From Arenicola marina (Eukaryota > Annelida > Polychaeta > Arenicolidae), in contig OZ025249.1 of the NCBI GenBank assembly GCA_964019135.1, forward strand, positions 6,622,039 through 6,686,038: 64,000 bases of DNA. Direction: 5' to 3'. Position 1 is the first letter of the stretch; each line of letters opens with the position of its first letter. Below the pieces are notes generated by a model. The model was not told the origin of the DNA, made no database searches, and saw only the letters and a program-made list of their open reading frames with translations. The position numbers and the translations under genes are program-made. This document shows, one piece after another, positions 6,150 to 58,350 of this stretch.

Positions 6150-7655
6150 CCTTGACTCCCCAGACCCCTCCCTCCCCATCCCCTCCCCGTCACCCCCCCC
6201 CCTCCCTCCCCGTCGACCCCCCCCTCCCTCCCCATCCCCTTCCCGTCACCCCCTCCCTCCCCACCTCTCCCCGTCACCCCCCCCCATCCCTCCCCATCCT
6301 CTTCCCGTCACCCCCCTCCCTCCCCATCCTCTCCCCGTCACCCCCCTCCCTCCCCGTCACCCCCCCCCTCCCTCCCCATCCTCTCCCCGTCACCCCCTCC
6401 CTCCCCATCCTCTCCCCGTCACCCCCTCCTTCCCCATCCCCTCCCCGTCACCCTCCCTCCCTCCCCATCCCCTCTCCATCACCCCTCCCTCCCCATCCTC
6501 TCCCCGTCACCCCCTCCCTCCCCATCCTCTCCCCGTCACCCCCTCCCTCCCCATCCCCTCCCCGTCACCCTCCCTCCCTCCCCATCCCCTCCCCGTCACC
6601 CTCCCTCCCTCCCCATCCTCTCCCCGTCACCCCCTCCCTCCCCATCCTCTCCCCGTCACCCCCTCCCTCCCCATCCTCTCCCCGTCACCCCCTCCCTCCC
6701 CATCCCCTCCCCGTCACCCTCCCTCCCTCCCCATCCCCTCTCCATCACCCCTCCCTCCCCATCCTCTCCCCGTCACCCCTCCCTCCCCATCCTCTCCCCG
6801 CCACCCCCTCCCTCCCCATCCTCTCCCCGTCACCCCCTCCCTCCCCATCCTCTCCCCGTCACCCCCTCCCTCCCCATCCTCTCCCCGTCACCCCCTCCCT
6901 CCCCATCCCCTCCCCGTCACCCCCTCCCTCCCCATCCCCTCCCCGTCACCCTCCCTCCCTCCCCATCCCCTCTCCATCACCCCTCCCTCCCCATCCTCTC
7001 CCCGTCACCCCCTCCCTCCCCATCCTCTCCCCGTCACCCTCCCTCCCCATCCTCTCCCCGTCACCCCCTCCCTCCCCATCCTCTCCCCGTCACCCCCTCC
7101 TCCCCATCCTCTCCCCGTCACCCCCTCCCTCTCCATCCCCTCCCCGTCACCCCGCCTCCCTCCCCATCCTCTCCCCGTCACCCCCTCCCTCCCCATCCTC
7201 TCCCCGTCACCCCCTCCCTCCCCATCCACCCCCTCCCCTCCCCCATCCCCTCCCCGTCACCCCCTCCCTCCCCATCCCCTCCCCCGTCACCCCTCCCTCC
7301 CTCCCCATCCCCTCTCCATCACCCCTCCCTCCCCATCCTCTCCCCGTCCACCCGCTCCCTCCCCATCCTCTCCCCGTCACCCCCCCCTCCCTCCCCATCC
7401 TCTCCCCATCACCCCCCCCTCCCCACCCTCTCCCCGTCACCCTCTCCCTCCCCATCCTCTCCCCGTCACCCCCTCCCTCCCCATCCCCTCCCCGTCACCC
7501 CCCTCCCTCCCCCACCTCTCCCCGACACCCCCCCTCCCTCCCCATCCTCTCCCCGTCACCCCCCTCCCTCCCCATCCCCTCCCCGTCACCCCCCGCCTCT
7601 CTCCCCATCCTCTCCCCGTCACCCCCCTCCCCCTCCCCAACCCCTCCCCGTCATC
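6150..7655. repeat. polypyrimidine minisatellite, about 1.5 kb
   Basis: Tandem units of about 24-30 bp built from CCCTCCCTCCCCATCC and TCTCCCCGTCACC blocks. One strand is almost pure C and T, so the long proline/serine open frame across it is a product of composition, not a gene. Such tracts can form triplex DNA and are hard to sequence, which fits the gap beside it. Confidence 0.93.
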
Positions 7656-7942: not shown

Positions 7943-9150
7943 TCCCAGACAGATCCCAGATAGCTACAAGACAGCTGCAAGACAGCTACAAGACAGTTTC
8001 GCAAACAGCTACAAGACTGCTACAAGACAGTTCCCAGGCAGTTTTACAGCTACAAGACGGCTCCGAGAAAGACAACTACAAGACAGCTGCAAGACAACTC
8101 CGAGACAGACCCCAGGCAGCTACAAGACTGCTACAAGACAGATACAAGACAGCTACAAGACAGCTCCGAGGCAGTTGCAAGACAACTACAAGACAGCTAT
8201 CAGACAGCTACAAGACAGCTATAAGACAACTCCGGGACAGTTGCAAGACAACTACAAGACAGCTACAAGACAGCTACAAGACACCTACAAGACCGCTACA
8301 AGACAGCTGCAAGACAACCTCAAGAATACTCCAAGACAGTTCCCAGACAGATGCAAGACAGATACAAGACAACTCCGAGACAGTTCCCAGGCAGCTTTAC
8401 AGCTACACGACAGTTGCAAGACAACTATAAGACAGCTCCGAGGGAGCTGCAAGACAACTACAAGACAGCTCCGAGACAGCTACAAGACAACTACTAGACA
8501 GCTACAAGACTGCTACAAGACAGATACAAGACAGCTACAAGACCGCTCCGAGGCAGTTGCACGACAACTACAAGACAGCTATAAGACAGCTACAAGACAG
8601 CTATAAGACAACTCCGGGACAGTTGCAAGACAACTACAAGACAGCTACAAGACAGCTACAAGACACCTACAAGACCGCTACAAGACAGCTGCAAGACAAC
8701 CTCAAGAATACTCCAAGACAGTTCCCAGACAGATGCAAGACAGCTACAAAACCGCTCCGAGGCAGTTGCACGACAACTACAAGACAGCTATAAGACAACT
8801 CCGGGACAGCTATAAGACAACTCCAGGACAGTTGCAAGACAACTACTAGACAGCTATATGACAGCTATAAGACAGCTACAAGATAGCTACAAGACAGCTT
8901 CGAGACAGTTCCTAGACAGCTACAAGACAGCTACAAGACAGCTTCAAGACAGCTCCAAATACAACTCCGGTACAGTTCCCACACAGTTACAAGACAGCTA
9001 CAAGACAGCTACAAGACAGCTACAAGACGGCACCAAGACAACTCCGAGACAGGTCCCAGCCAGCTACAAGACAGCAACAAGACAGCTACAAGACAGCAAC
9101 AAGACAGCTTCAAGACAAGATCAACACAGCTTCAAGACTGTTCCACATCC
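7943..9150. repeat. 11-bp minisatellite, about 1.2 kb
   Basis: About 110 imperfect copies of AGCTACAAGAC, with variants such as AGTTGCAAGAC and AACTCCGAGAC. Longer blocks recur (for instance the segment ending in CTACAAGACACC near 8270-8345 is repeated near 8640-8730), showing secondary amplification. Eleven bp is close to one helical turn. Because 33 bp equals eleven codons the frames stay open, but the predicted KTATRQLQDSY-type peptide is not a recognised protein. Confidence 0.93.
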
Positions 9151-16600: not shown

Positions 16601-19600
16601 GGCCTGGGTGCACCCCCTCCCCTCCCCTCCCCTCCCCCACCCTCCTGCCCCCTCTCCGGGCCCCCTTCGCCTCCTAGAGCCAGAACTGTAACTACCCCAT
16701 CCCCATCCTCACATTGAGTGTCCACCTGACCACGCTTTCAGACACTCCAATCCCTTTCGCTGTCAGGCCGCTCGCGAGTGGGCGCCCCCAGATAGCTCAC
16801 GGGAGGCTCTAGTTGGCTCTATGTATGACATCCACTCCTCCCTCACAAAAGCCGCTCGAGGTGATGGGCGCTCGGGGTTTGCTGCCGTTTTAACGGCTGA
16901 CGGCGACGACGTCGCGTGCTAAGGCCCTATTTTCGCCCGTCATGTCGGTGGTTTCTCGCTCGGCCACAAGATGGCGTAATGCTGGCCGAAGTAGACGAGG
17001 GAGAGACAGGACGAGAGGGAGAGTGGTGGGGGTGGAGGGTACTCTTCCCTTTTTACGATCACGAGGCCAGACTTATTAGCACAGCTGACCGACCCCTGGC
17101 CAACTAAATGGAGTGAAGTAGCATGCAAACTATCACTTCGCTGTCGCCCCATCGGCTTTCCCGTGGAGAGGACACCCTTGCCAACCAGCCCTGAGCAGAC
17201 CAACGGGGCCACCTGGCGATCTGCGCCCATTAAACAAATTGACAACCCACTAGTGCATCTCGGTTACAAATAGGAAGGTCCACCAATCCGGGGTTTACAA
17301 TCATTTTATTTAACGAAAAACAACAGTGGAGGTGCAGGATCGACATCCTTCATAAGATTATCTCATGTGATAAATCTGGCCCATCTAGATTCGGTTAAAC
17401 GTAGGTCCCACCAAATCAGGGTGTGCGACCCACATATATAGATTTCGACCCCAAGAAAGTTGCCCTCTCGTTATATTTAACGACAAACAGTGGATGTGCG
17501 GGGTTAATATCCTACAAAAGATTACCTTGGATGATACATGTGGGTGCCTCCCAGCCTCCTTAAACCCCTGTAACGGCCTCTGCAAAATAATGCGTTACAA
17601 GAAATGACATTACTTCATGGGATTAAAGGCAAATAATACTTTGCAACGTTTTGTTGTGTACGGCCCTTAAAGAGGGTTGGGCCATTGTGATGTGATACAT
17701 ACATGTTCAACACTAGAATAATATGCCAGTATATATGGGTGTGTGGGGATGGGGAGGGGGGGGGCTGAAAAGCTTTGTTAGTTTTTACTAACAATTTTGT
17801 ATTTAGAAATGGGATTTTATCCGTTCTCACAGTTATGCATGTATGTTCTTCCTGCCATCCGTGCAGAGCCATTTTAGTTGCTCTTGCTATCCATATTATT
17901 TTTAATGCCTGTTACTATTGCAAAACGTATTGCTTGTATAATGATCCATGTCTCTTGCTATGATTAGCCATGTTTGTTTTAATATCGACTCTTGTCTGTT
18001 TCTATGATGACCGTGTATGTTTCTATAGTTATCCTCGTCTGTTTCTAAAGTCATCGTCGTCTGTTTCTATAGTGATCTGTCTCTGTTTCTATAGTGATCT
18101 GTCTCTGTTTCTACGGTGACCCGTGTCTATCACTGGTTCTATAGTGATCATTGTCTGTTTCTACAGTGATCAGTGTCTCTCCTCACAGCGCCGAAGCCAT
18201 CTACGATGACCAAGCGGACCGGAAATTCCGGGCTGGCGTCGACAGTGATGGATGGATCCAGTGGGTGCCCGGCGGCAAATTCGTCACTTCCTGTCAGCTG
18301 GACATCACGCTTTATCCATTCGACAACCAGCGATGCGAAATGGATTTCGTCGACTGGACCTATGACGGGCGCTTCGTCAACCTCCTCAACGGTACGGACC
18401 GGATAGGCATGGACGTCTACAAGAAGCACGGCGAGTGGGATATCGTCCACACCGAGGCCATGAAACTAGACCAATTCTTCGATTCGGACCCCGGAATTCC
18501 TTTCCCGACGGTGAAATTTGTGCTTCATTTAAAGCGGAAACCCAAGTTTTACATGATCAACGTGGTGGCGCCGTGCATCCTCATGTCTATCCTGGCACTG
18601 CTGGTCTTCTACCTGCCGCCGGACTCCGGCGAGAAGGTGTCGCTGGGCATCACCGTGCTGCTCTCCTTCTCCGTCTTCCTGCTCCTCATAGCGGAAAACG
18701 TGCCCAAGACATCGGATTGTGTGCCGCTGATAGGTGAGTGGGACCCGAAGTCACGGATCATCCATTTCAATTCGATGTTGTCAATAAGTGCCATATTTTT
18801 GAATGTTGTATTAAAAATAGTTATAGATTAATGCACAAAATTCACGCATACAGTATAAAAGCAAAGGGTTAAGTATTATTTATTATTAATCGATTCAAAA
18901 ATAAAATATTGTATGTATATAATCACTATGCTAGGAATATATTAATTGTGATTTCGTTTAATTTGGTAACGTACAAAAATACTGTATGTGTATAAAATTA
19001 CTATGCGTTAAGGGGTGAATCACCAAAAGTGATACTGTGTTTTGCAATGAAAATAACCTATATATTAAAATGATATTACCGATGTGCGCGATGTAAGTTC
19101 GAAGTAAGTCCCCATTCGTTATGTGTGGGTGGTGCACAGCTGTTGCCAGACACCTGCACGGTGGCAGTGAATTCACCTCAAGACTGTGATGACCGATGAA
19201 CGCAAACTTAATCCCTGCTTACGTGACAACGGTGACTGACAGCCTCTGTGGTTATCCGAGTCGATTTCCCGCAGAGATTGCCCCATTTTTTATTTGCCGA
19301 CGGACCGCAGCTGATACTTACTTGCCCGCCTTCCGCCGGCCAATGAGGCGTTGATATTGATCGCTCCTCATCCGTCCGACGGCCTGCGCTGTGATCCCCT
19401 GAAGGTCACGTGGTCTGGTTGATGCGTCCCTCCCCGTAAACAAAACACGCTTCAGATGTCGTTGGAATGGAATACACATAGGAAGCGAGGACAGGGTCAA
19501 AGGGGGCTTAAAAATTATGCGATTCCCTTCATCCGGAGGTGTTAGGATTCCATCTGTCATTATGTCAGCAGCGGTCTTTATCTTCATATGGATCTACAAC

Positions 19601-33061: not shown

Positions 33062-34817
33062 AGGGTAGCTCACACTGTGCCGGTTCATAGTCCCGGTTTA
33101 CCCCGGTTCTGAAAACCGGGGACAACCTTGGACAACCCGGTGCAACCGTAGCGAGTCCGTAGTCAATCCGGGGTAATCCGGGGTGTACTGTGGTGAACCG
33201 TAGGTCGCCCCGGTGGTTTTGAACTGTTCAAAACTACCGGCATGAACCGAGACCGAGCCCCGGTATTTTCAAACCGTGTGAAACCTTAGTGCCACCGTAG
33301 TACAACCGGGCTTCACCGTAGTACCACCGTGCAAGCTACCGGGGCTATCCGTAGGCAACCGGGGGTGACCGTGGCGTTCTGGGGCCACGGTGAGTCACGG
33401 CAGCACTAGGTTAGTATAAAAGTGGGATAACATGTGTTTCAAATCACTTGGTGCTTCATCCCTGGAAGGAGACGCATCATAGCTCTTGTCGCCAACAACT
33501 TGAACAGACTGCTGGAACAGACTTCAGCTGATGAACTGGCAACTGCAGTTGAACAGACAGCAGGCTACAAACAACATGGCGATGCTCTAAGTTATTCAAC
33601 AAAACAGAAGAATGAAAACAATAAGGGCCAGAAAACAGAGAACTGTGTGGGTGACACCTTGGGCCGAGAGGCGAGTGACACTTGGGCAGTACACACGTCT
33701 GATGAACGAATTGTGTGTTGAAGATGTTCCAGAACTTCCTACGTGTGGATTCAGAAATGTTTAAAGAACTACTCCTACGACTGGAGAACAGAATCACGAA
33801 GCAAGGCCCATGGTTTCGCAAGGCTCTAGAACCTGGGTTGAAGTTGAAGGCCATAACACTGAGGTACCTAGCCTCAGGTGATAACTACCACTCACTCGTG
33901 TATGGCATCCGGGTACCTGACAACACCATTTCGCTGTTAATTCGTGAAGTGTTCCATAATTGTATCGGTGCTCTGGATGGCAAACACATAGCCGATAGGT
34001 GTCCAAACAAAGAGGAATCAATCTATTACAACTACAAGGGCTTCCATGCGATCATCCTCGTGGCTCTGGTGGACGCAGACTACAAATTCACCTGGGTGGA
34101 CGTTGGTGCCAATGGATCTTCCGGAGATGCCCAGGTATTCAACAATTCACACATGAAGGAGGCCATTGAGGAAAGAACCATAGGACTCCCCCCTCCCAAT
34201 GCACTGGCTGGGGATGACAAGGACATACCATACTTCATAGCTGCTGATGACGCCTTCGCCATGAGGACCTGGCTCATGAAACTCACTAATGATGAGCGAA
34301 TCTTCACTTACCGGCTGTCTAGGGCTCAGAGGATAGTTGAAAACGCTTTCGGCATCCTAGCACACACGTTCAGGTGCCTGCTGACAACCATGAGGCAACG
34401 CCCTGACACGGTTACCGTAGCGTCACCGTAGTGAGACCGTAGTGAAACCGTGGCACGACCGGGCACAACCGTAGTACTACCTTGGTGGACCGTAGCATAA
34501 CCTTGGTGGACCTTAACATAACCTTGGTAAACCGGGACAAACCGTGGTGATACCTTAGTGGTACCTGGATGAACCTTGGCTTACCGTGATGATCCGTAGT
34601 CAAGCCTTAGTAAGACCGTAGTAGCACCTGCATCCACCGTGGTGACACCTTGATGTACCGTAGCATACCGTACCAGCACCGTAGTAACACCGTGGCCTAC
34701 TGTTTTCGCGTCAAAATGTTGCGAGATGGCCCCGGTTCGTCCCGGTATGTCGACCGGGAAGAACCGGGGAGGACCGGAGTAAACCCTAGCCAACACCGGC
34801 ACAGTGTGAGCTAGGCT
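33062..34817 (+). mobile_element. PIF/Harbinger DNA transposon with decayed transposase
   Basis: Inverted ends start AGGGTAGCTCACACTGTGCC on the left and AGCCTAGCTCACACTGTGCC in reverse complement on the right (about 23 bp, two mismatches), flanked on both sides by TTA, the usual Harbinger target. Subterminal regions (33075-33410 and 34405-34720) are packed with ACCGTAGT, ACCGTGGT and CCGGGG motifs at about 11-bp steps. The transposase remnant lies between them. The second gene typical of this superfamily, a Myb-like protein, was not seen. Confidence 0.85.
33715..34431 (+). pseudogene. Harbinger transposase (DDE_Tnp_4) remnant
   Basis: 238 codons resembling the HARBI1-like nuclease: NFLRVDSEMFKELLLRLENR near the N-terminus, then CIGALDGKH, YYNYKGFHAIILVALVDADY, GSSGDAQVF, FIAADDAFAMRTWLM and YRLSRAQRIVENAFGILA. 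The DDE motif blocks are visible. Compared with the family, a stretch of some 30-40 residues is missing before CIGALDGKH, the loop after RTWLM is shortened and the C-terminus runs straight into the subterminal repeat. An upstream frame (33434-33721) seems to hold part of the N-terminus, out of frame. Hence it is most likely non-functional. Confidence 0.85.
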
Positions 34818-41092: not shown

Positions 41093-41361
41093 GCTGCAGC
41101 GCACACCATGAAGCCAATTTGAAGTTGTCCTCGCCGCATAACATGGCATCCCACCATTATGATAAATCATATCCACTATCGCAGGATAAGTATGTAGGCC
41201 CATTATGGATTTCTGGGCTGAAAGCGTTCCGCCATAGCTTGTGCGATAGGACGCTGCATTCTTTAACTTTTTTTTTTAAAATTTATTTTACTGTTAAAAA
41301 ACCGCAACGAAGAGATATATATGAATATACTTTTTGTTTGAAAATGACCTCCATCCTCGGC

Positions 41362-43195
41362 CCAGCCAGTGTTACAGTCAATTGGCTCAGCCAGTGTTAC
41401 AGTCAATCTGCCCAGCCAGTGTTAGTCAGTCCGCCCAGCCAGTGTTACAGTCAGTCCGCCCAGCCAGTGTTACAGTCAGTCAGCCCAGTCAGTGTTACAG
41501 TCAGTCCGCCCAGCCAGTGTTACTGTTAGTCCGCCCAGCCAGTGTTACAGTCAGTCCGCCCAGCCAGTGTTACAGTCCGCCCAGCCAGTGTTACAGTCAA
41601 TCTGCTCAGCCAGTGTTACAGTCAGTCCACCCAGCCAGTGTTACAGTCAGTTCGCACAGGTAGTGTTACAGTCAGTCCGCCCAGCCAGTGTTACAGTCAA
41701 TCTGCTCAGCCAGTGTTACAGTCAGTCCGCTCAGCCAATGTTACAGTCAGTCCGCCCAGCCAGCGTTACAATCAATCGGTTCAGGCAGTGTTACAGTCAG
41801 TTTGCCCAGCCAGTGTTACAGCTAGTCCGCCCAGCCAGTGTTACAGTCAGTCCGCTGAGCCAGTGTTAGTCAGTCCGCCCAGCCAGCGTTACAGTCAATC
41901 GGTTCAGCCAGTGTTGCAGTCAGTTCGCCTGGCCAGTGTTACAGTCAGTCCGCCCAGCCAGCGTTACAGTCAATCGGTTCAGCCAGTGTTACAGTCAGTT
42001 CGCCCAGCCAGTGTTACAGTCAGTCCACTCAGCCAGTGTTACAGTCAGTCCGCCCAGCCAGTGTTACAGTCAGTCCGCTCAGCCAGTGTTACAGTCAGTC
42101 CGCTCAGCCAGTGTTACAGTCAGTCCGCTCAGCCAGTGTTACAGTCAGTCCGCCCAGCCAGCGTTACAGTCAGTCCGCCCAGCCTGTGTTACAGTCAGTC
42201 CGCCCAGCCGGCGTTACAGTCAATCGGTTCAGCCAGTGTTACAGTCATTTCGCCCAGCCAGTGTTACAGTCCACTCAGCCAGTGTTACAGTCTGCTCAGC
42301 CAGTGTTACAGTCAGTCCGCCCAGCTAGCGTTACAGTCAGTCCGCCCAGCAAGTGTTACAGTCAATCCGCCCAGCCAGTGTTACAGTCAATCCGCCCAGC
42401 CAGTGTTACAGTCAGTCCGCACAGGCAGTGTTACAGTCAGTCCGCTCAGCCAGTGTTACAGTCAGTCCGCTCAGCCTGTGTTACAGTCAGTCCACCCAGC
42501 CGGTGTTACAGTCAGTCCGCCTAGCCAGTGTTACAGTCAGTCCGCCCAGCCAGTGTTACAGTCAGTCCGCCTAGCCAGTGTTACAGTCAATCTGCTCAGC
42601 CAGTGTTACAGTCAGTCCACCTAGCCAGTGTTACAGTCAGTCCGCCCAGCCAGTGTTGCAGTCAGTCCGCCCAGCCAGTGTTACAGTCAGTCCGCCCAGC
42701 CAGTGTTACAATCAGTCCACCTAGCCAGTGTTACAGTCAGTCCACCTAGCCAGTGTTACAGTCAGTCCACCTAGCCAGTGTTACAGTCAGTCCGCCCAGC
42801 CAGTGTTACAGTCAGTCCGCTCAGCCAGTGTTACAGTCAGTCCGCCCAGCCAGTGTTACAGTCAGTCCGCCCAGCCAGTGTTACAGTCAGTCTGCACAGG
42901 CAGTGTTACCGTCAGTCCACCTAGCCAGTGTTACAGTCAGTCCGCCCAGCCGGTGTTACAGTCAGTCCGCTCAGCCAGTGTTACAGTCAGTCCGCCCAGC
43001 CAGTGTTACAGTCAGTCCGCCCAGCCAGTGTTACAGTCAGTCCGCACAGGCAGTGTTACAGTCAGTCCGCCCAGCCAGTGTTACAGTCAGTCCGCCCAGC
43101 CAGTGTTACAGTCAGTCCGCCCAGCCAGTGTTACAGTCAGTCCGCTCAACCACTGTTACAGTCAATCCGCACAGGCAGTGTTACAGTTAGTCCTA
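41362..43195. repeat. 25-bp minisatellite, about 1.8 kb
   Basis: About 73 copies of CAGTCCGCCCAGCCAGTGTTACAGT-like units, with variants CTCAGC, CACAGG and CACCTAG in the middle. Because 25 leaves remainder one modulo three, all three plus frames read the same SVRPASVTVSPPSQCYSQSA peptide cycle, so the overlapping long frames are artefacts of the array. Confidence 0.95.
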
Positions 43196-44919: not shown

Positions 44920-45414
44920 CTACACCGGTCCACTACCCGCCCCCTCCCCGCCCGTCTCCCCACCCCCTTTGCTCTGCCTGCCGGCCAACTCCCCACCCAT
45001 CCCCTCCTCACCCGCCTCCCCACCCGCCCCCTCATCACCAGCCTCCCCACCCGCCCCCTCATCAGCAGCCTCCCCACCACCCTTGCCCTCCCCACGCGCC
45101 CCCTCATCACCAGCCTCCCCACCAACCTTGCCCTCCCGTCCGGCTACTTCCCCACCCGACTCCCCACCACTCTTTCCCTCCAGTCCGGCCTCCTCCCCAC
45201 CCGCCTCCCCACCCCCCTTGCCCTCCCGGCCGGCTGCCTGTCGCGCCATCTGCCGGAAGAGGACGACCGCCTTGACCGCCGTGGCTGGCCGCAGCTGGCT
45301 CTCCCGCCTCTTCAGGTCGTCACGGTGCAGGTTGATGGGCAGCCAATTCTCCACGAAGTCCTCCTTCAGCAACCATAGACGGCGCTGCAGCGACTCGTGG
45401 CAAGTCTGCGGACT
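44920..45414 (-). CDS. iGluR C-terminal tail exon
   Basis: Acceptor CCTCAG then SPQTCHESLQRRLWLLKEDF and ENWLPINLHRDDLKRRESQL, a basic, helical stretch. A low-complexity tail of glycine, glutamate and alanine follows (45240-44923), ending SGPV and TAG. A slightly later acceptor (start 45405) is also in frame. The tail DNA is a minisatellite of CCCACCCGCCCCCTCATC type, so tail length may vary between individuals. Confidence 0.85.
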   Translation of the reverse strand, partial: SPQTCHESLQRRLWLLKEDFVENWLPINLHRDDLKRRESQLRPATAVKAVVLFRQMARQAAGREGKGGGEAGGEEAGLEGKSGGESGGEVAGREGKVGGEAGDEGARGEGKGGGEAADEGAGGEAGDEGAGGEAGEEGMGGELAGRQSKGGGETGGEGAGSGPV

Positions 45415-45577
45415 CTGAGGTCCAGAAAAGAACCTTTTGAAGTGGGTGCGCCCCAGAATATTTACATCGTCTAAAGATACTGTGCGCATATATGGTATAG
45501 TTATATTATTATATTCTAAAAAATGCTCGCTTATATGGTTTAGTTATATTGTCTGTGCATAAAATATTAACATCTGC

Positions 45578-45633
<56 letters not shown>

Positions 45634-48600
45634 TAGTTTGTTTTGTTTTTATAGTTCAATACGTCGGCCACGTTGCCGTTTTTGTTTTGACATCATCTGC
45701 GTTATGACCTGCCAACCGGACGCTGATAGTACCCACACATATCTGAGGCTAGCTTCACCATTTCATTGTCCAGGAAGGTTTCTTCGCCCAATGAATCCTT
45801 TATGCGCACCAAAGTGGCCTGAAACACCACATTTCCTTTCCCACAGACATGAGTACTTCAAGCCCTGCCGACTGTGCCATCAGGACGACCCACACGCCGA
45901 AGCCATGACTTACGGTGGGTCCGTCCGCTCTGACGCGCATCAGGGCCGACCAGAACCACTCAAAGACAGCCACCGCCAAGCAGATCCCGAACCCATAGTA
46001 GATGATCCAGAAGACGCCCCACAGGGAATCCATGCTGATCTCCACCGTCTCCGCCTCTATCTCGCCGTCGTTGGTCGCCTGGTCGCACAGGGCCGTCTTC
46101 ATGATCCTGATGAGCGCCATCGGGAATGATAAGTAACTAACATATGTAAATATACTTATATAAATAGATATAAATAAAAATCGAGCCATCTCTGCATTAT
46201 TGCTGCAACATCATTTTACATAGGCTACACTGCATGTAAGACCAACACTTTACTATGTTCCCGGTGCCCGACAATAAGATTCAAATTCGAACATATGTAT
46301 ATTTTTTGTAATAAATGGTAGTTGGCATAGTAAAAAACGACGCCATTCAGTGTCGTGTGTCACCACTTATTGTCTAGGGTATCCATGAATCCGGATTCCC
46401 GCAGCAGGTAGATCACGAGGGTCAGCTCCTCGGTGTACAGGGAACCCTTCGGCAGACCAAAGCCATAACCAACGTTAGCAAAGCCAGAATCCGCCATTTT
46501 TAGCCGGCAATCCTGACCTGAAAGAAATAAAGCTTCACGTAGTTAATTATTTATATATTTTCATTCACACATGTGTCTTTCATGGCAAATTTAAAGTAAA
46601 ACATGGTGCTGTACAATATAAAGATTATGCAGCGGAAATTCCTCACCATCAAGATCTCAAAATTCTAAAAAAAAACGAAGGTGTTTGGAGCACAACAAAT
46701 TATTCAGAGATTCTAGGTTTGTCAAGGTTGAAGTATGGGATTCAAATCAATGGGAACCTTGTCGAAATCTCGACATCGACAGGACGCTGAACGCTATAGT
46801 TGCAAAATGGCAATAACAAAAATAATATCATTAATCGCTATATAGTCTTTGCCTACCTTCCCAGTATGTTACGCCTGGCATGTCGTATAACATGGCGAAG
46901 CTGCCGTTCATGTGGATCGTGTGGTCCACCAGAGACTGAGTGGTGTTGAAGTAACTGTTCCACTCCCTCATCTGGTTTGCCATCTCTCTGGGGAAACATC
47001 CAACATGATTCATTTAATTCCCCGTAAATAGGGGTAAAGAAGTATTCATTCATAATGGCACGAATTGCTGGGCTACGTTTAGACAAATACGAAATCCGAA
47101 TTTCCTAGAGATTAATTCGGACTTAGTTAACCATTTGTACGTGGCCTCAACTGTTGCCAAACTGTACTAAATATGCTACAACTAATTACAGGTATGTGTG
47201 TCTTCATTTTGCCAATATTTTTGGAGTTTTTGAGATTTACAAGAAAATTTACGACACTCGTAATGGTGTACGGCGTTGTGGGAAGACGTGGGAAGTTGAA
47301 AGCCTTACAAGTAAGGTGATCGCTGGGCACTGTCGAAGAATTCCTGCAGCTGGCTGTCCAGCAGTGTGCCGTAGGTGACGCCTGTCTGCTTGACCAGGTC
47401 CTCCACGGAATTGATCTGCTCTGCCGAGATCTTGATGGTGAGGAAGGCCGCCAGGTTGGCGGTGTAGGATGCTGTTATGATGAGTACTGCCAGCCACCAC
47501 ACCGCCGCCGCGATACGAGCTGTGTACAGATAAGGGGCCGTGATGATGAATACCTGCACACCACCCGCCAGCCCCCCGCGATACCAGCTGTATACAGATA
47601 GGAGACCGTTATGATGAGTATCTGGACCCCCCTCAGCCCCAGCCCCCTCCCCCCCCCACCGCGATTCGCGCTGTGTGCAGATACCTGGCCGTCATGTTCA
47701 CTATCGCCACCCCCGCCGGCATGCGACCGGTGTACGGATAGGAGTCCGTTATGATGCCAGGACTCCGGGTGTGCTGGAAGAGGGAGGCCATGGACAATAT
47801 GTAAGGACTCACCTAACCAGGACTGTGGGTGGGTCTCTCCGCCCTGCTGTAAGAAGGAGGGAGGGCGTGGACACTATGTAAGGACTCACCTAACCAGGAC
47901 TGTGGGTGGGTCTCTCCGCCCCGCTGGAAGAGGGAGGGAGGGCGTGGACACTATGTAAGGAAACACCTGACCAGGCTTGGGTGTGTCTCCCCGCCCCGCT
48001 GGAAGAGGGGGGGAGGCCATGGACAATATGTAAGGACTCACCTAACCAGGACTGTGGGTGTGTCTCCCCGCCCTGCTGGAAGAGGGAGGGAGGCCATGGA
48101 CAATATGTAAGGAAACACCTGACCAGGATTGTGGGTGTGTCTCTCCGCCCTGCTGTAAGAAGGAGGGAGGGCGTGGACACTATGTAAGGAACCTCCTGAC
48201 CAGGACTGTGGGTGTGTCTCCCCGCCCCGCTGGAAGAGGGAGGGAGGCCATGGACACTATGTAAGGAAACACCTGACCAGGCTTGTGGGTGTGTCTCCCC
48301 GCCCTGCTGGAAGAGGGAGGGAGGCCATGGACACTATGTAAGGAAACACCTGACCAGGCTTGTGGGTGTGTCTCCCCGCCCCGCTGGAAGAGGGAGGGAG
48401 GCCATGGACAATATGTAAGGACCCACCTGACCAGGCCTGTGGGTGGGTCTCTCCGCCCTGCGGGAAGAGGGAGGGAGGCCATGGACAATATGTAAGGACT
48501 CACCTGACCAGGCCTGTGGGTGGGTCTCTCCGCCCTGCTGGAAGAGGGAAGCCATGGACCAGAGCAGCCCGTTGTGGAGACTCATTCTGGCCTTCTCGTG

Positions 48601-51600
48601 GAACCACTGCTTCATCTCGTAGTAATCCACGGAGCCGTCCTCGTTGAGGTCCATCGCCTCGTGTTCGTGTGCGTTCTCTATCTGAGCCTTCTTTCCTAGC
48701 GAGTTCAGTCAAAATAATAAAACTTGAGCAAACAATACTTGGGCTTAATGGCATAATTATGCATATAATAAAAGCACACTCTGGCGTGGATACCAAACTA
48801 AGTTTTCTTTATCAGTCTTTCTACAACCCTTGGTAACAGTGATTTACAGCACAGTTTGGTGCTCCTTAATTATAGGCCCGCTAGGGCACTATAACAGTAA
48901 CATTGTGCTATGCCATCTTCACTGATGTAGCGCCTCACCATGGTAACCGTAGGGACTCAGCTTGTCCAGAACACATATGACCACCCCGACGAGGACCGCG
49001 GTGCCCAGGGTGAGCCCCCAGAGCTCGTGGCTGAGCGGGGTGAGGAAGGACCAGGGGTCGTAGCCTTTGCCGGGGTGCACCCCAATCAGGATGCCCAGCT
49101 GCAGGTCTCGGTAGGGCTTGGTAAAGGAGATGACTGACTCCCGCACCGAGCTGATGGTGAAGGCACCCACGGCCAGGTCAGCTTTCTGCACCAAGGTATA
49201 GACATGAAGCCTGCTGAACCACGAGCTGCCATGTCCAACGTATACGCAACAGTTTCTGTACATGTATCATTACGCAAATGACTTCAGGTGAACCAACCTT
49301 TAACTACTAACAAAAACACCACTAAAAAACTTAGTTGTAGCAGCTTAGAATCATGTTTACCAATGACAATTGGCCTTCCGGGCAACATTTTTGAGACGAA
49401 TAAATACATGAAACCGTACTTTGTTCCAGACAGTTCGGTCCGGGTTTTAAAATCTGGGTCCAGGAAATGTGCTGAGGCATTGCGTGTTAAATTTCGCGAA
49501 GCAGCAATCTAATTCCAAGGTACTGGCTTCAAATAAAGATGTACTATGCTGGGTTTAGAATTTGTGTTACACAAATCGTAAACATGAACTCTGAGCTTTT
49601 TTCCAAATGTTGAGCCTTTATCTAAGTAATATCAATTTATATCGGCCCAAAATATACAAAAGGAAACTTATCGTAGGAGAAAAAATCTATCAGCTTTGGC
49701 ATTAATTGTTCAATTTATTAAGGTCCAAACTGAAATAAAATATGCATTACCGGACAATGCTTGTACATCATAATTTATTGATATTGTTCTGATATGGATA
49801 GTTTATAAACATATATATATATATTGATTAGGATAAACGTTATTATGCATGTGGGTATAAAGAAGATGAATACTATGTCCTGGCCTGGCTGGAGGGTTAT
49901 AGTCGGCATCCTGCTAGTCGCGTTCCCTTACCGTGCGTCCATTCTGATCCGGAAGTAACTCAGCGATCAACCCGTTCCATTCCTTGGTGACGTCATCACG
50001 TGAGCCGTACTTCTTATCCTCGACCTCGTGAATGACGAACGTGAACTTCAGCTCCTCAGCCAGCTTCTTCAGCAAGTCGATGGCGTATCCATAGTAACAC
50101 TTGTCGCCGCCGCACACAGCATCCTGAGTGAACTGGTTGGTTTCGTGCTTCGCGGAGATGAAGACGAAGGGAGCATCCTGCAACAGGGCAAAGCATATCA
50201 AATGCAGAAACAACTGCTTAGATCATTTCTGCAAAACGTAGGAAAAAAGAAAAGCGTCATTCGAGCAAGTAGTTAGCACTTCAGTGACATCGTGTTCATA
50301 TGTTCGCCTTGCTATTTGCCTGAAGGTCAGTGGATATTCTTACACATTGAAGCATAAGGGCTGGTGACAAGTAGGTCAAAAAGTAGCTGCCCTCGGATCA
50401 TTTTAAATGGTTACAAATGGTTTCCTTTGAAAGTAGACTTTGATTTGAATGTTGGACGTCTGACTACGGCGGACTGAGAATAACTGTAAGTGGACTGACC
50501 GCCACGGTGACCACCCGGAGCGTCTTGTTGGTCAGGTCGCCGACATAGTCACGGACATCATACATGAAGCGCCCGCCCAGCGACAGCAGGCCGGTCACGT
50601 TCAGCTCCATGCCGACCTCATCGCTCCACTCGCCGTGCTGAACGCCGGACGATAACTCATAGGCTTAGTCTCACGGAGCAATGAAACCAAAGAATACTAG
50701 GAATCACACCTACGCCCTAGGCCTACTTCACAAAATATTTATTAGCACAATCAATTAAGACGAGGAATGTTATGATATATACATTTCTAATGATTTATCT
50801 TTGGTTTAACCGCGATATGCCGTACCTTGGTCCAGCCGCCATTGGTTAGGCTGAGGATGTCATAGCTGTGACGTAATGGCGCTCCCTCCGCCGTGAACTC
50901 CAGATAGCGCATCACGCCGTCCGTAGACACCTGATGGCATCCAAACCAACATTACTGTCCTTAAATCATATCACACGGCTGTGGTTCATAATGTTTACAG
51001 GTGCCACTGTCTCAGCATTTAACTGAACTTTTGTACTCTCCTTCATTTGTTGTTCCATCTTTCTCTTCCTCTTACTACTTTTCACTCGACTAACTAGTCT
51101 GGATCATGGCCCCGGTCCAATCTCCACCGCACACACAACTTAACTGACAGGTTGTGGCGCCCCCTCCAGGGGGATTGTCTTCAGCACAGGTCAATGTGCT
51201 GACGTCACCGCAAGGTCGGTGGCAGCCTGGCTGGTGTGGGGGGGGGGGGTACTTAATATATTCCTGTTTTTTTTGTTGGGGGGGGGGGGGGGGTCCGCGG
51301 TATAGCCCCCCTTTTTTCCCCGGCAAAATTCGGTCGGTCGGGGCGTTTTACCACCAAAATTTAAATTATCCATTGGGGTATCTTTTTTATCAAACATGTC
51401 CGCTCTCACTGGTATCAAGGGGCACCCGCGGAACCCTCCGCCCACCACCATCCCCACCAGATGTGTATAACAGTAGCCCCGCCCCCTCCCTTCCGGAAAT
51501 ACAGGTTTCTTTACCGCTGTAGATCGCACTCCACATTGGTTTTGTTCTTACCGTCTTCAAGTAGTCGTACATTTTTGGTCCATACGGCCAGACGATGGCG

Positions 51601-54600: not shown

Positions 54601-56695
54601 CGCACAAGAAAATGTCATAGATGCTGTTTCGAGCTAGTTTCGTTTCTACATTAATTACCGATGCACATTTATACCAAACGAGTGTATAAATGTATGTTAT
54701 GAGACATTTAAGAATTAGTTTCAATATTTGCCGTAGCCACGTAATAACTTACGTATCCGGTGATGCCGTCCGTGACTACCCAGACCCACCCCTCATCCAG
54801 CATGCCCATCTGAAAAGCCTGGTCCAGGATGAACAATCCATGGGCAGCCAGGCAGTTCAACACCACAACACGCGAACCTGGGGGTAAACGCAGCCATCAG
54901 GGAACAAAAAGATATCACTGAGGGTGCGGTAGTCTATGGAGGCGTAGCGGGATGACATACTAGGGGTCAGGTGGGTGGGGGGTCCAGCGTCCAGTGTCGA
55001 TTTTTCAAAATTCTCAGTGTCAAATGTCGATTTTTCGTGATGATCCGTGTCGCTTTTTGGGTAACTTCAGTGTCGTCTTTTTTTTCTTTCTTTCTAAAAT
55101 GCCAAAATCTGTGTCGATGTCGCTTTTTCAGATCCATAGTGTCGGAATTTGGGGGTCAATGTCGAATGTCTAATATACCTGTGTCGCGTGTCACCATTTC
55201 CCCCTCCCAGACCCCTCATACTTACATAATAACTGATCTGACCCTTGATCCACTTGAGGTCAAAACCGTTGGTTACCATTATTACCAAAGGAAGTATCAC
55301 TACTGGCTAGGGATTGATGGGGAAGGACATCTTGGCCCAGAGACTGGACAGGTAAGGAATAACCTTTACGGCCTAAGAATAAGCAGGTATTACATGACTG
55401 GAAATGATCTCCACTACCTAAGGGATGACATTCGATTTGTATGTCAATTTCAGGAATAAAAACTAAAGGCACAATAAATTTAATGAAATATTGCTTATAT
55501 CTAAACGTAACTGAAATGTTCATATAGCAATTTAGTTGGTGCATGTGCCAATATTTCTCTGATCAGTTAGCCTGTATGTGGCACCTGCATCCATTGGGAG
55601 GCATAACCATATATTGGACACATGGATCTTTTTATCTACTTCGCTTATTGCTGGTCGGTTAGTGGCCGCGGTAAGTGACCATATACTGATTGTATAGCAC
55701 GAAAAATTCACCAGCTGCCATTAATAATGGATCTTCAGAATCAGGCAGCTAACTCCCTTGCTTTGCTTCATTTATGTTGTGTCGGCGGGAGGGCGTGCTA
55801 TGCGAGATGGATCGCGATATTGTGACTAATGAAATATTCACCAGGCTACCTGGCAACTGCGGCCAATGTGACTCCAAAGCGTCCCCGCGGAGCTGTTAGC
55901 AGATTAATTTATTAAAAGGGTATCACCCCCCGGGGGCGGAACCCGCGTCCCCTTGGACAGCGAGCCAGTGACTGTGTGTGTGTGTGGGGCGGGGGGGGGG
56001 GGGGTGGAGATCACCTCACCTGAGCCTTTGATGTTATCTAGCTGGATGGATGCGTTCACCTTGGCAGGATCCGTGGTTGCCATGAACTGCTGCACGCTGA
56101 GCACTCGCCACTTGTTCACGGCCGCCTCAGCTTGAAGCTCCACCAAACCATTCAGTCCTGGACCGACACAGACCCAGATGTTAAAACGCTCAGTGTCTTC
56201 GTTCCGTATATTCATAATTTCCCATACCTTAAATTGCCGCAGACATGTTCTGATATAGATGGAGTCCGCGGCAGTAATGGAATATGTTGCATTGATAATT
56301 TATGGGCCTATATAAAAGACGCAAACAGAAAACGACGTAATAAATGGCCATTCAACATCTGTTTAGCATAGAATAATATGTCATGGGCGGAGCTACAACA
56401 TCTACCCAGCATGTAAATGATACTGATGATGACAATGATTATAACGATGCTGATAAAGAAAGATGCTGCGTAGAGAATATATAAAACTCGTATGTATCCA
56501 TGGTGAAGTTTGTAAACAAGACAATGAAAAAGTTGTAAAAAGTGTTAAATAAAATCAGTCCGCCATTGACCTACCGTAATCAGTGTTGTCTGTCAAAATG
56601 GCGACGGTGTCCCACCGGAAGTAGTTGATGAGATCAACGATGACCTTGCTCTGCATGGCGTCAGAGGCCATCAGCCTCAGGAGGTGGGGATCTAT
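44920..56695 (-). CDS. ionotropic glutamate receptor with EF-hand in the M1-pore linker (5' end not found)
   Basis: Fifteen exons on the minus strand, all with GT-AG sites and compatible phases, give one 936-residue frame: 56695-56575, 56157-56020, 54877-54753, 54406-54257, 51716-51552, 50930-50826, 50637-50500, 50177-49932, 49185-48939, 48695-48504, 47519-47309, 46987-46857, 46517-46364, 46106-45914 and 45414-44920. In order they encode the amino-terminal domain (lacking about its first 100 residues), ligand-binding half S1, membrane helix M1, an unusual EF-hand linker, the QQG pore loop, M3 with SYTANLAAFLT, S2, M4 and a Gly/Glu-rich tail. S1 keeps the key arginine (SSVRES) and S2 has aspartate at the amino-group contact (MLYDMP), but the S2 threonine contact is leucine (DSQLQEFF). 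It is a plasma-membrane ligand-gated cation channel. Subfamily is uncertain; a clade lost in vertebrates, such as the Epsilon group, is my guess. Confidence 0.94.
45578..45630. repeat. (AT)n microsatellite
   Basis: Uninterrupted alternating AT of about 50 bases in the last glutamate receptor intron. Confidence 0.97.
45914..46106 (-). CDS. iGluR M4 exon
   Basis: WIMKTALCDQATNDGEIEAE then VEISMDSLWGVFWIIYYGFG and ICLAVAVFEWFWSALMRVR: the disulphide-type cysteine, the linker and M4. Donor GTAAGT after ADGPT. Confidence 0.95.
46364..46517 (-). CDS. iGluR S2 end exon
   Basis: GQDCRLKMADSGFANVGYGF then GLPKGSLYTEELTLVIYLLR, the conserved GYG-PKGS turn and last S2 helix. It ends LDNK plus TG before donor GTGACA. 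Reading through would meet a stop at once, which supports the splice. Confidence 0.94.
46857..46987 (-). CDS. iGluR S2 exon
   Basis: Encodes EMANQMREWNSYFNTTQSLV then NGSFAMLYDMPGVTYWE. The aspartate in LYDMP sits where AMPA receptors have glutamate and NMDA-type subunits aspartate, contacting the ligand amino group. Confidence 0.94.
47309..47519 (-). CDS. iGluR M3 and start of S2 exon
   Basis: RIAAAVWWLAVLIITASYTA then NLAAFLTIKIS is the M3 gating helix with the near-invariant SYTANLAAFLT motif. It continues with VEDLVKQTGVTYGTLLDSQL and QEFFDSAQRSPYL of S2. The serine/threonine pair that contacts the ligand gamma-carboxylate is replaced by glutamine/leucine. Acceptor TACACAG, donor GTAAGG, phase 2 out. 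Confidence 0.95.
47520..48503 (-). repeat. intron composed of tandem copies of its own exon edges
   Basis: From the donor side, about nine 75-77-bp units (starting TATGTAAGGA on plus at 47799, 47875, 47952, 48027, 48104, 48181, 48258, 48335 and 48412, the exonic unit being 48489) each repeat the exon end ATGGCCTCCCTCTTCCAGCA, then GGGCGGAGAGACCCACCCAC and a GTGAGT-like or GTGTTT donor. From the acceptor side, three to four units of about 55-85 bp (47537-47603, 47604-47687, 47688-47743 and a stub to 47762) repeat the following exon's first 45-50 bases plus its CTGTATACAG acceptor. The two arrays meet near 47762. Confidence 0.93.
48504..48695 (-). CDS. iGluR EF-hand linker and pore-loop exon
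   Basis: After M1 this exon reads GKKAQIENAHEHEAM, then a perfect 12-residue EF-hand loop DLNEDGSVDYYE (48651-48616), then MKQWFHEKARM and the pore loop NGLLWSMASLFQQGGETHPQ. EF-hand calcium-ligand positions 1, 3, 5, 7, 9 and 12 are D, N, D, S, D and E, with glycine at 6 and valine at 8, and amphipathic stretches flank the loop as E and F helices would. The Q/R site is glutamine (CAG at 48540-48538). Donor is TCAG then GTGAGT. Confidence 0.95.
48616..48651 (-). other. EF-hand calcium-binding loop
   Basis: Twelve codons that fit the EF-hand consensus at every key position. It lies in the cytosolic M1-pore linker, which is about 41 residues here against roughly 25 in AMPA and kainate receptors. 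Only one EF-hand is visible, whereas these motifs usually pair. Confidence 0.9.
48939..49185 (-). CDS. iGluR end of S1 and M1 exon
   Basis: KADLAVGAFTISSVRESVIS carries the arginine that binds the ligand alpha-carboxylate. The usual proline of the PLT motif is alanine. Then come FTKPYRDLQLGILIGVHPG and M1 (ELWGLTLGTAVLVGVVICVL), ending with SPYGYH and one base of the next glycine codon. Confidence 0.95.
49932..50177 (-). CDS. iGluR ligand-binding S1 exon
   Basis: 82 codons beginning DAPFVFISAKHETNQF, with a CGGDKC cysteine pair, then YYGYAIDLLKKLAEELKFTF and EWNGLIAELLPDQNGRT. It matches the S1 helix and strand pattern of ionotropic glutamate receptors. Confidence 0.95.
50500..50637 (-). CDS. 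iGluR linker and start of ligand-binding S1
   Basis: Encodes HGEWSDEVGMELNVTGLLSL and ends NKTLRVVTVA, the first beta strand of S1. Donor GTCAGT. Confidence 0.92.
50826..50930 (-). CDS. iGluR amino-terminal-domain exon 6
   Basis: Encodes VSTDGVMRYLEFTAEGAPLR and SYDILSLTNGGWTK. 35 codons, phase 0 on both sides. This is the closing strands of the amino-terminal domain. Confidence 0.92.
51228..51472. repeat. dispersed repeat, copy B
   Basis: Same ordered blocks as 30855-30990 (ACTTAATA, GTCCGCGGTATAGCCC, TATCAAGGGGCACCC, CACCAGATGTGTATAA), with longer G-runs and an extra 80 bases in the middle. It lies in a glutamate receptor intron. Confidence 0.6.
51552..51716 (-). CDS. iGluR amino-terminal-domain exon 5
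   Basis: Encodes SWPLAYYDSIVTLAHALHRM through GPKMYDYLKT, including the YDS-V helix of the domain. 55 codons, phase 0 on both sides. Confidence 0.92.
51790..52840. other. iGluR intron, nothing recognised
   Basis: AT-rich intron with a TATATCA-rich patch at 52195-52260. No exon or named element. Confidence 0.5.
52848..53915. mobile_element. long-inverted-repeat (foldback) element, about 1.05 kb
   Basis: The left arm from about 52848 to 53207 and the right arm from about 53540 to 53915 are inverted copies. The best-matching inner part includes CATCGAAACTTTGACCACTG on the left and its complement near 53590-53630, with GTCTCGGAAC at the arm tips. Outer parts are diverged and interrupted by indels. 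The centre (53280-53540) is single copy. There is no coding capacity. The ends and the target duplication are not exactly resolved. Confidence 0.75.
53219..53270. mobile_element. 52-bp minimal MULE-like MITE
   Basis: Two 25-bp inverted ends (one mismatch) separated by GG only, beginning TTGGCGCAAGTGCCCCCAGG. It is flanked on both sides by the exact 9-bp duplication TATGGTGCC (53210-53218 and 53271-53279). It is inserted inside the foldback element. Confidence 0.92.
54257..54406 (-). CDS. iGluR amino-terminal-domain exon 4
   Basis: Encodes TTFAESLETRPYLAGLIGPR through NAGNASDREIE, exactly 50 codons. The LAGLIGPRP motif corresponds to the GLIGIRP strand of many receptors. Confidence 0.92.
54753..54877 (-). 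CDS. iGluR amino-terminal-domain exon 3
   Basis: Encodes SRVVVLNCLAAHGLFILDQA through GWVWVVTDGITGY, the conserved WVxTDG strand of the domain. Phase 1 in, phase 0 out. Confidence 0.92.
54980..55200. repeat. degenerate GTGTCGATTTTTC repeat
   Basis: About ten diverged units of GTGTCGATTTTTC, spaced irregularly at 15-25 bp, in a glutamate receptor intron. Confidence 0.55.
56020..56157 (-). CDS. iGluR amino-terminal-domain exon 2
   Basis: Encodes LNGLVELQAEAAVNKWRVLS through SIQLDNIKGSG. Acceptor GGTCCAG, donor GTGAGG. Confidence 0.9.
56575..56695 (-). CDS. iGluR amino-terminal-domain exon (first visible)
   Basis: Encodes DPHLLRLMASDAMQS and then INYFRWDTVAILTDNTDYG, a typical mid-lobe segment of the periplasmic-binding-like amino-terminal domain. 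It ends in phase 1. Earlier exons (signal peptide and about 100 residues) were not found up to the divergent gene at 58351. Confidence 0.88.
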
Positions 56696-58350
56696 CTGAG
56701 AACCCATGAAATGTATTGTTGTAGCATTGGTAAACTTGAGTCATACGTGAGCTAAGCTGAAACAGTGGTTCGCCCTGACATGGAAGAAAGTAGGACGCTG
56801 CAGCCACAAGTCAGTTTAGTTCATCTTCAGATTGCAAGAATGAAGTTGTGTTTCGCATCAAGGCGCGTAGGCTACTTCGCATGGATTATGTGTCCTTATA
56901 CAGACGATAATGGTCATTTAAGTGTGGAATAGGATAAAATGGTTCACATTATTGGATACTGAAAGGATATGATACGCAGCGATGTTGCCATGGTGTTTGA
57001 AACAAGTCACACCCAGTGCGTTGTTGATGGATAGGATATGCTTTGCAAACGAGTTTCGTGGGATTCACGAGAAAGAAATTGATTTCTAGTGTGATTATAG
57101 GATATAAGGAAATGTCGGTATGTATCTTGCATATGAATTACATATGATCTCAAATTCAGTTTTTAAAGTGGATTTTCTGATATATGCTTGTTTTCATGAG
57201 AAATTTGTATATGTTTTTGCTGGGGCTTTCCGTCGGGCGTCAAGCTTCCAGTTCATCATCCATTGTGGTTGTGACCTATTTCAGACAAGCTCACTTATTG
57301 CTCATGATTGGCATTGACTGCGATGGTCGATTTCGTAACAGAAGGACGATTGTTCAACAGAAAAATTGTTTGGTCTCCTTGAGTCAATCGCAATTTATCG
57401 GCTCGCTAAAACAGTACATTCGTGAAAAATAATGCACAGTTTAGACAATAGAATGACGTCATAGCAGTACTTTAAAATTATTTAATGCAACTTAGTAAAT
57501 AATGGGCGCACTATATGTGTTAGATTTGATCCTGATCTAACTTGGCTACACACTCCCAATTTCTAGCCATGAATCCATGGCTATGGTTGAAGAATCATTT
57601 TTCAGCCCACACAGCCTAGGGTTCTGGGCTACCCAATATCCGACTAATATGTTTTATATTCGGGATAGCATTCTTTTATATTATTCTATTATTGCATAGA
57701 AGGCAACTCGTTACTTAATTGACACATGTGCCTGTTGCGCAGACGTTTTCTTCACTGTCCCCGGGTAAACATGTTGAGCACCGCTTTTTCGATTTTCGCA
57801 CAAACTGGAAATTTAATTGGCTTCAACTGGTTTATTGCATATCAGCATCACAGTGATATCAGGTATTTTTGCGATATTGTGTCCGCTCATATAGCTGGCC
57901 GTGATCACTTGACATTGTCCTTGTTAAGAATTGCTTTGGGTGCAAAAATAACATAATTATGTTATATACTGTTGCAGGCTTCAGAATCATGCGGTCCTAA
58001 AAATGTACGTCAGTAGAGAACATATTGACCACACACCGTACGTTATTAGGCCTAGCTATATAATTAATTACTATCAACGTTTTCCACGCAAGTATAAGCG
58101 ATAAAGGCGCAGCTAGGTAGTTTGTTATGCCTCACCCATTGTATGATTTTGGCGCTGACATCATAGTGGAAATAATTAAAAGTTCTGGAAGCACAAGAGG
58201 ACATGCGAACAGGAACGGCTGTCAGACTACGAAGCGGGAGACTACCGCGGGCGTCTGTACGCACTTTTTTTGGGGAGGAGATGTAGAATAATTCCACGGA
58301 TGACGCCCATTGACTAAATTCTTCGCTGTGGAGGCGCGGTTGGATTCAAA
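56696..58350. other. 5' flank between divergent genes
   Basis: This stretch should contain the promoter of the hinderin gene and either the 5' exons or an intron of the glutamate receptor. I searched both strands by eye for a signal peptide exon and did not find one. The 100 bases before 58351 lack a clear TATA box. Confidence 0.45.

Follow-up and report, generated by a model that had tools for sequence, protein, structure and literature searches.

A 984-nt intron in an AMPA/kainate-like ionotropic glutamate-receptor gene, encoded on the minus strand of the 64-kb stretch of DNA that we analysed (the window), is built almost entirely from tandem copies of its own two exon borders. We consider it very probable that an intron which already existed at this site grew when the sequences spanning its two splice sites were duplicated in tandem, with minisatellite-like turnover of the copies. 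Repeats of exon-intron borders have already been described in lancelet genes, where they are called "mirages", and the receptor intron is a clear and unusually complete case. The preliminary description of this DNA had offered growth of a decoy-rich intron by duplication across both splice sites as one of its readings; our analysis supports this reading, and the phenomenon is known from accounts of lancelet genes (PMC3087553, PMC3902484).

Seven exons of the receptor gene, from 50177 to 45935, join to 451 residues with no stop codon; the exon borders were set by eye, and the seventh exon was cut where an M4-like stretch ends. The Pfam Lig_chan domain matches a joined 217-residue peptide (E = 1.1e-30), and GluA2 chains are the nearest solved relatives of the joined peptide (best E = 4e-36). 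The intron follows the pore-loop exon, as had been proposed, and its limits are exact, with GT at 48503-48502 and AG at 47521-47520. It begins with GTGAGT, ends with CACAG, and is placed between the pore loop (...SLFQQGGETHPQAWS) and ARIAAAVWWLAVLIITASYTANLAAF, just behind the selectivity filter. Coordinates of the individual features are collected in the table. A search of Rfam gave no matches at gathering thresholds, and no relatives were found in a collection of viral contigs. Two further regions on the same strand may belong to this gene. The first, at 44923-45543, is a possible C-terminal tail that carries a repeat with a period of 45/90 bp (GGGEAGGEEAG-like), which leaves the reading frame open throughout and has no Pfam match. 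The second, at 56558-56740, is an ANF_receptor-type fragment (E = 1.4e-11) and is perhaps a piece of the amino-terminal domain.

Table. Features of the border-derived intron and its flanking exons in the glutamate-receptor gene (positions within the window).
Feature	Position	Strand	Evidence
Upstream exon with EF-hand-like insert, pore helix and filter QQGGETHPQAWS	48504..48695	-	spliced frame, tblastn, GluA2 alignment
Third intron of the stretch of seven exons (984 nt, phase 1)	47520..48503	-	
Intron head, 17 nt, with the real donor CAG/GTGAGT (9/9 consensus)	48487..48503	-	
Nine full donor-edge units (exon tail with 4-nt insertion, and intron head)	47796..48486	-	
Tenth donor-edge unit, truncated and lacking 13 nt internally (by eye)	47757..47795	-	
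Degraded acceptor-edge copies: three exon-head copies, two acceptor-like decoys (CTGCACACAG, CTGTATACAG), and blocks of the CATCATAAC type	47533..47756	-	
Intron tail (TATCTGTACACAG) that contains the real acceptor	47520..47532	-	
Downstream exon of the M3 region (ARIAAAVWWLAVLIITASYTANLAAFLT...), with the template for the acceptor-edge copies at its head	47309..47519	-	spliced frame, tblastn

The template for the donor-edge array is the last 56 nt of the upstream exon. This exon tail aligns to the intron with a score of 93, the maximum among 500 shuffles being 27, and Tandem Repeats Finder reports an array at 47780-48549 with a period of 77, 10.0 copies and 91% matches. Where about nine copies of 75-77 bp had been described, we count nine full units, eight of 77 bp and one (unit 7) of 75 bp, together with a truncated tenth; the exon's own copy of the unit begins at 48559. 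The 17-nt intron head, bearing a few substitutions, recurs in each of the nine full units, and each also has a 4-nt insertion that neither the exon copy nor truncated unit 10 possesses. No two of the ten sequences (exon copy plus nine full units) are identical, with 1-16 differing columns per pair (gap columns counted singly). Their similarities form a mosaic: units 2, 3, 4 and 7 are alike, as are units 8 and 9, while unit 5 is nearest to unit 9 and the exon copy is nearest to unit 1. A mosaic of this sort would be the pattern expected from minisatellite turnover. The motifs earlier ascribed to every unit turn out to be somewhat less regular. GGETHPQ from the coding stretch QQGGETHPQ is kept in eight of nine units, and a 2-nt deletion falls there in the remaining one; the pyrimidine tract is followed by CCG instead of CAG in one unit; and the donors, described as being of the GTGAGT or GTGTTT type, comprise three GTGAGT, four GTGTTT and one GTGGGT, with GT lost in the one that remains.

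Three degraded copies of the downstream exon's head lie in the intron beside the real one (81, 74 and 60%; repeat search, family D2), which agrees with the three to four copies noted previously. The acceptor-side copies are much weaker than those on the donor side and exceed shuffles only modestly: the best local score of the exon head against the intron is 34, and 300 dinucleotide shuffles reached at most 29. They carry a TATCTG-type intron tail. An acceptor-like sequence of the CTGTATACAG type, thought to stand at each copy, precedes two of the three, as CTGCACACAG or CTGTATACAG. The two arrays abut directly, the truncated donor unit passing into an acceptor-type CATCATAACGG block. Truncated unit 10 and the adjoining copies are open in one frame (tblastn E = 2.7), for which the chance is 1 in 3; an old continuous exon would also explain this open frame.

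BLAST pieces of the two exon edges cover 83% of the intron, and the larger uncovered runs measure 88 and 32 nt, the former containing weak edge copies; the statement that the intron holds almost nothing else is thereby borne out. Most of the intron sequence derives from exon, but such an origin is not clear for the 17-nt head and the ~13-nt tail that the units contain. Among the six introns of the gene stretch, the edge-copy score rises above shuffles (200 mononucleotide shuffles) only in the 984-nt intron, and no exon-edge copies were found in the other five introns tested.

The outer donor is the sole donor with a 9/9 consensus in the 4,401-nt stretch 45800-50200, where the remaining sites of at least 8/9 number four and are all donors of the array; array donors score 6-8/9, and one of them lacks GT. 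Ten donor-side decoy acceptors have 16-18 pyrimidines per 20 nt versus 13 at the real acceptor and 9 and 12 at the acceptor-side decoys, and AG is in place in nine of these ten and shifted by 3 nt in the other. The silence of the decoys is not self-evident, since by simple consensus the donor-side decoy acceptors out-score the real one and four decoy donors reach 8/9. The decoys are nevertheless probably silent, with the outermost donor joined to the outermost acceptor, because the outer donor is the sole 9/9 site and successive units are spaced only 39-46 nt apart. These spacings would be the introns between would-be micro-exons of 31, 32 or 34 nt, and the shortest other intron among the six measures 243 nt. 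We infer that splicing of the units one by one is poorly feasible and that the outer sites are preferred under exon definition.

Additional candidates for a role of RNA structure or editing were considered. Masking of decoy acceptors by hairpins was rejected: several of the predicted folds do pair the pyrimidine tract, but the predicted fold stability of the exon copy and the nine units is no better than that of shuffles (z from -1.28 to +1.05). A search for an exon-intron editing duplex of the GluA2 kind found no inverted repeats in 47200-48800. Edited GluA2 reads MRQGCD. A change from CAG to CGG, present in four of the nine units, was considered as the edited Q/R codon written into the genome, and this lead was dropped because MRQGCD in edited GluA2 places the change on the next glutamine.

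The exon upstream of the intron contains a further peculiarity. In the M1-M2 linker it encodes a loop, DLNEDGSVDYYE, which resembles a canonical EF-hand loop and falls at a gap in the alignment with GluA2. Pfam EF-hand models remain under their cut-offs for this insert (best E = 0.013, 15.4 bits versus 25.4). Single-sequence structure prediction (pLDDT 74.5) gives one helix in which an EF-hand is not seen, and a PDB fold search returned seven matches at E <= 10 and none at E <= 0.001. A literature search combining ionotropic glutamate receptor, EF-hand and M1-M2 loop retrieved no papers, and the main text of one receptor paper (PMC6307864) mentions none of EF-hand, intron, selectivity filter, QQGG or RNA editing. 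A calcium sensor beside the pore would be notable, if real.

The anatomy of the intron suggests the following route. At the start, a spliceosomal intron would already have been present behind the pore loop of the glutamate-receptor gene. On the donor side, the exon tail and 17 nt of intron head would have been duplicated in tandem; on the acceptor side, ~13 nt of intron tail and the exon head. Both arrays would subsequently have turned over in the manner of minisatellites and the original intron body would have been lost, so that the present intron would represent almost solely copies of its own borders. The outer splice sites would still be used, the perfect donor bounding a 192-nt exon as compared with internal would-be exons of 31-34 nt. 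The effect of the array is probably neutral, or a low-level leak, and the copies would presumably have no function of their own. The fact that the 17-nt intron head is present in all nine full units indicates that amplification came after a donor, or an intron, was in place, and this favours growth of an existing intron.

It is also conceivable, though unlikely, that the intron arose de novo or was relocated. In that case tandem duplication of the exon would have supplied a donor, a branch point, a pyrimidine tract and an acceptor, and the copies between these signals would have become intron, following the Rogers model and its amphioxus extension. The small amount of sequence other than edge copies fits this scenario, as does the presence within the exons of a pyrimidine-CAG stretch (CTTCCCTCTTCCAG) and a branch-point-like TCATAAC (a role judged by eye), which recur as intron signals; a model of intron gain from mirages has been published as well (PMC3087553, section 16). 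The single frame left open through truncated unit 10 and its neighbouring copies gives a further, slight reason to retain this scenario. It is countered by the 17 nt of non-exon sequence in nine of nine full donor units and by the TATCTG-type tail of the acceptor copies, and the idea put forward in the preliminary description, that intron gain might here be caught in the act, is not shown, on the same point: full units already hold the intron head. The position of the splice site, 36 nt from the Q/R-equivalent A versus 25 nt in GluA2 (PMC3391646), would be compatible with gain; intron sliding or an independent older intron could also give this 11-nt offset, and all three fit. We regard as doubtful the fuller version of this scenario, in which the intron would have been gained or moved by boundary duplication with signals lent by the pore-loop and M3 coding sequence, and mirage turnover would have shifted or replaced an older intron to give the offset from the GluA2 Q/R-site intron. 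If it is true, an intron consisting of its own edges alone would be the end state predicted by the published amphioxus intron-gain model.

A second reading from the preliminary description saw in the units a reservoir of micro-exons or alternative donors that could diversify the channel or switch it off at its filter. The units do possess a pyrimidine tract and AG, eight of nine have a GT donor, and four decoy donors score 8/9. When splice paths were modelled (minimum intron length 50 nt, up to four micro-exons, listed sites only), 51 of 372 were open and in frame, a count that includes the plain path and has no neutral expectation beside it; every in-frame alternative lengthens the stretch from pore loop to M3 by 22 residues or more. 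The claim that one micro-exon shifts the frame and three restore it holds only where 34-nt units are spliced to the real acceptor, as pairs that include the 32-nt unit 7 restore the frame, and single units do so too through an upstream decoy acceptor. The inter-unit introns would be only 39-46 nt long, one donor is dead, and the folds resemble those of shuffles. There is no clear coding constraint: the copies differ by seven kinds of codon change, counted from the in-frame CAGCAG block, of which three are synonymous and four non-synonymous (P = 0.17 versus a neutral expectation of 79% non-synonymous). A coding role for the copies is not supported, and the reservoir, weak at best, strikes us as improbable. 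Short similar repeats are also easily misassembled, and one amphioxus mirage is described as seemingly misassembled in a draft genome (PMC3087553), which raises the question of whether the number or order of the units could be wrong here. The exon copy and the nine units are mutually distinct and the arrays adjoin exons of an open gene, which makes an assembly artefact very improbable.

Minisatellites are abundant across the whole window, where Tandem Repeats Finder reports 45 partly overlapping rows. Very long ones are located at 41360-43193 (25 bp x 74), 6165-7653 (29 bp x 51) and 7947-9138 (11 bp x 108). On the plus strand, an array at 17995-18180 consists of about eight TCTGTTTCTATAGTGATC-type units of 22 bp, six of eight with an acceptor-like TTCTANAG, and ends immediately ahead of a Cys-loop receptor exon (Neur_chan_LBD, Neur_chan_memb); no exon copies were detectable in this array (score 19, shuffle maximum 20). 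An open reading frame for a DDE_Tnp_4 transposase (E = 1.9e-20), which we presume to be Harbinger-like, lies at 33706-34431 (+).

The receptor intron adds an ion-channel gene to the genes named with mirages, which in the accounts given by PMC3087553 and PMC3902484 together are Adh3, globins, troponin C and PGBD5. Ten decoy acceptors whose pyrimidine tracts surpass that of the real one, and four decoy donors close to perfect, lie within this single intron, a natural test bed for splice-site choice in a channel gene. It also illustrates how border copies can take the place of an intron body, which bears on intron growth, sliding and origin. Our literature search, which had most subscription journals outside its reach, found no mirage in a glutamate receptor, and the 984-nt intron is not treated in the portion of a further receptor paper (PMC12226733) that was consulted.

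Amphioxus mirages are described as tandem repeats over exon-intron boundaries, among others in Adh3 and the globins BflGb6 and BflGb9, with haplotypes that differ in length, inner units that are homogenised, RT-PCR said to suggest undisturbed, regular splicing, and a proposed model of intron gain (PMC3087553). According to the same account their units measure 10-160 bp, and 5' and 3' boundaries are both liable. The receptor intron resembles them in its minisatellite-like boundary copies, many with AG/GT, and in cluster borders that escape homogenisation (PMC3087553). Here the tandem unit spans the exon-intron boundary on the donor side and on the acceptor side, the AG and GT signals are retained in the units with some broken, and the 4-nt insertion and mosaic similarity indicate concerted evolution inside the cluster with its borders excluded. 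It differs from the amphioxus cases as described in that amplification has affected the two borders of a single intron, whose copies together fill almost all of it, and in its glutamate-receptor host. Lancelet PGBD5 is similar in that its imperfect tandem repeats of 60 and 108 bp extend over 5' and 3' splice sites, with apparently fewer copies (a triplication of 108 bp is named; PMC3902484). Introns formed from internal tandem repeats have been reported in human (PMC2812944). In the potato RdRp gene, splice signals likewise came from duplication across an exon-intron boundary; there the duplication made a new intron, as shown against relatives, whereas the receptor has many copies inside one intron (PMC4974935). 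Finally, intron 11 of vertebrate GluA2, the Q/R-site intron, lies in the homologous region just behind the selectivity filter (PMC3391646, PMC4761006), and differs in its distance from the Q/R-site A (25 versus 36 nt) and, by our own count, in phase.
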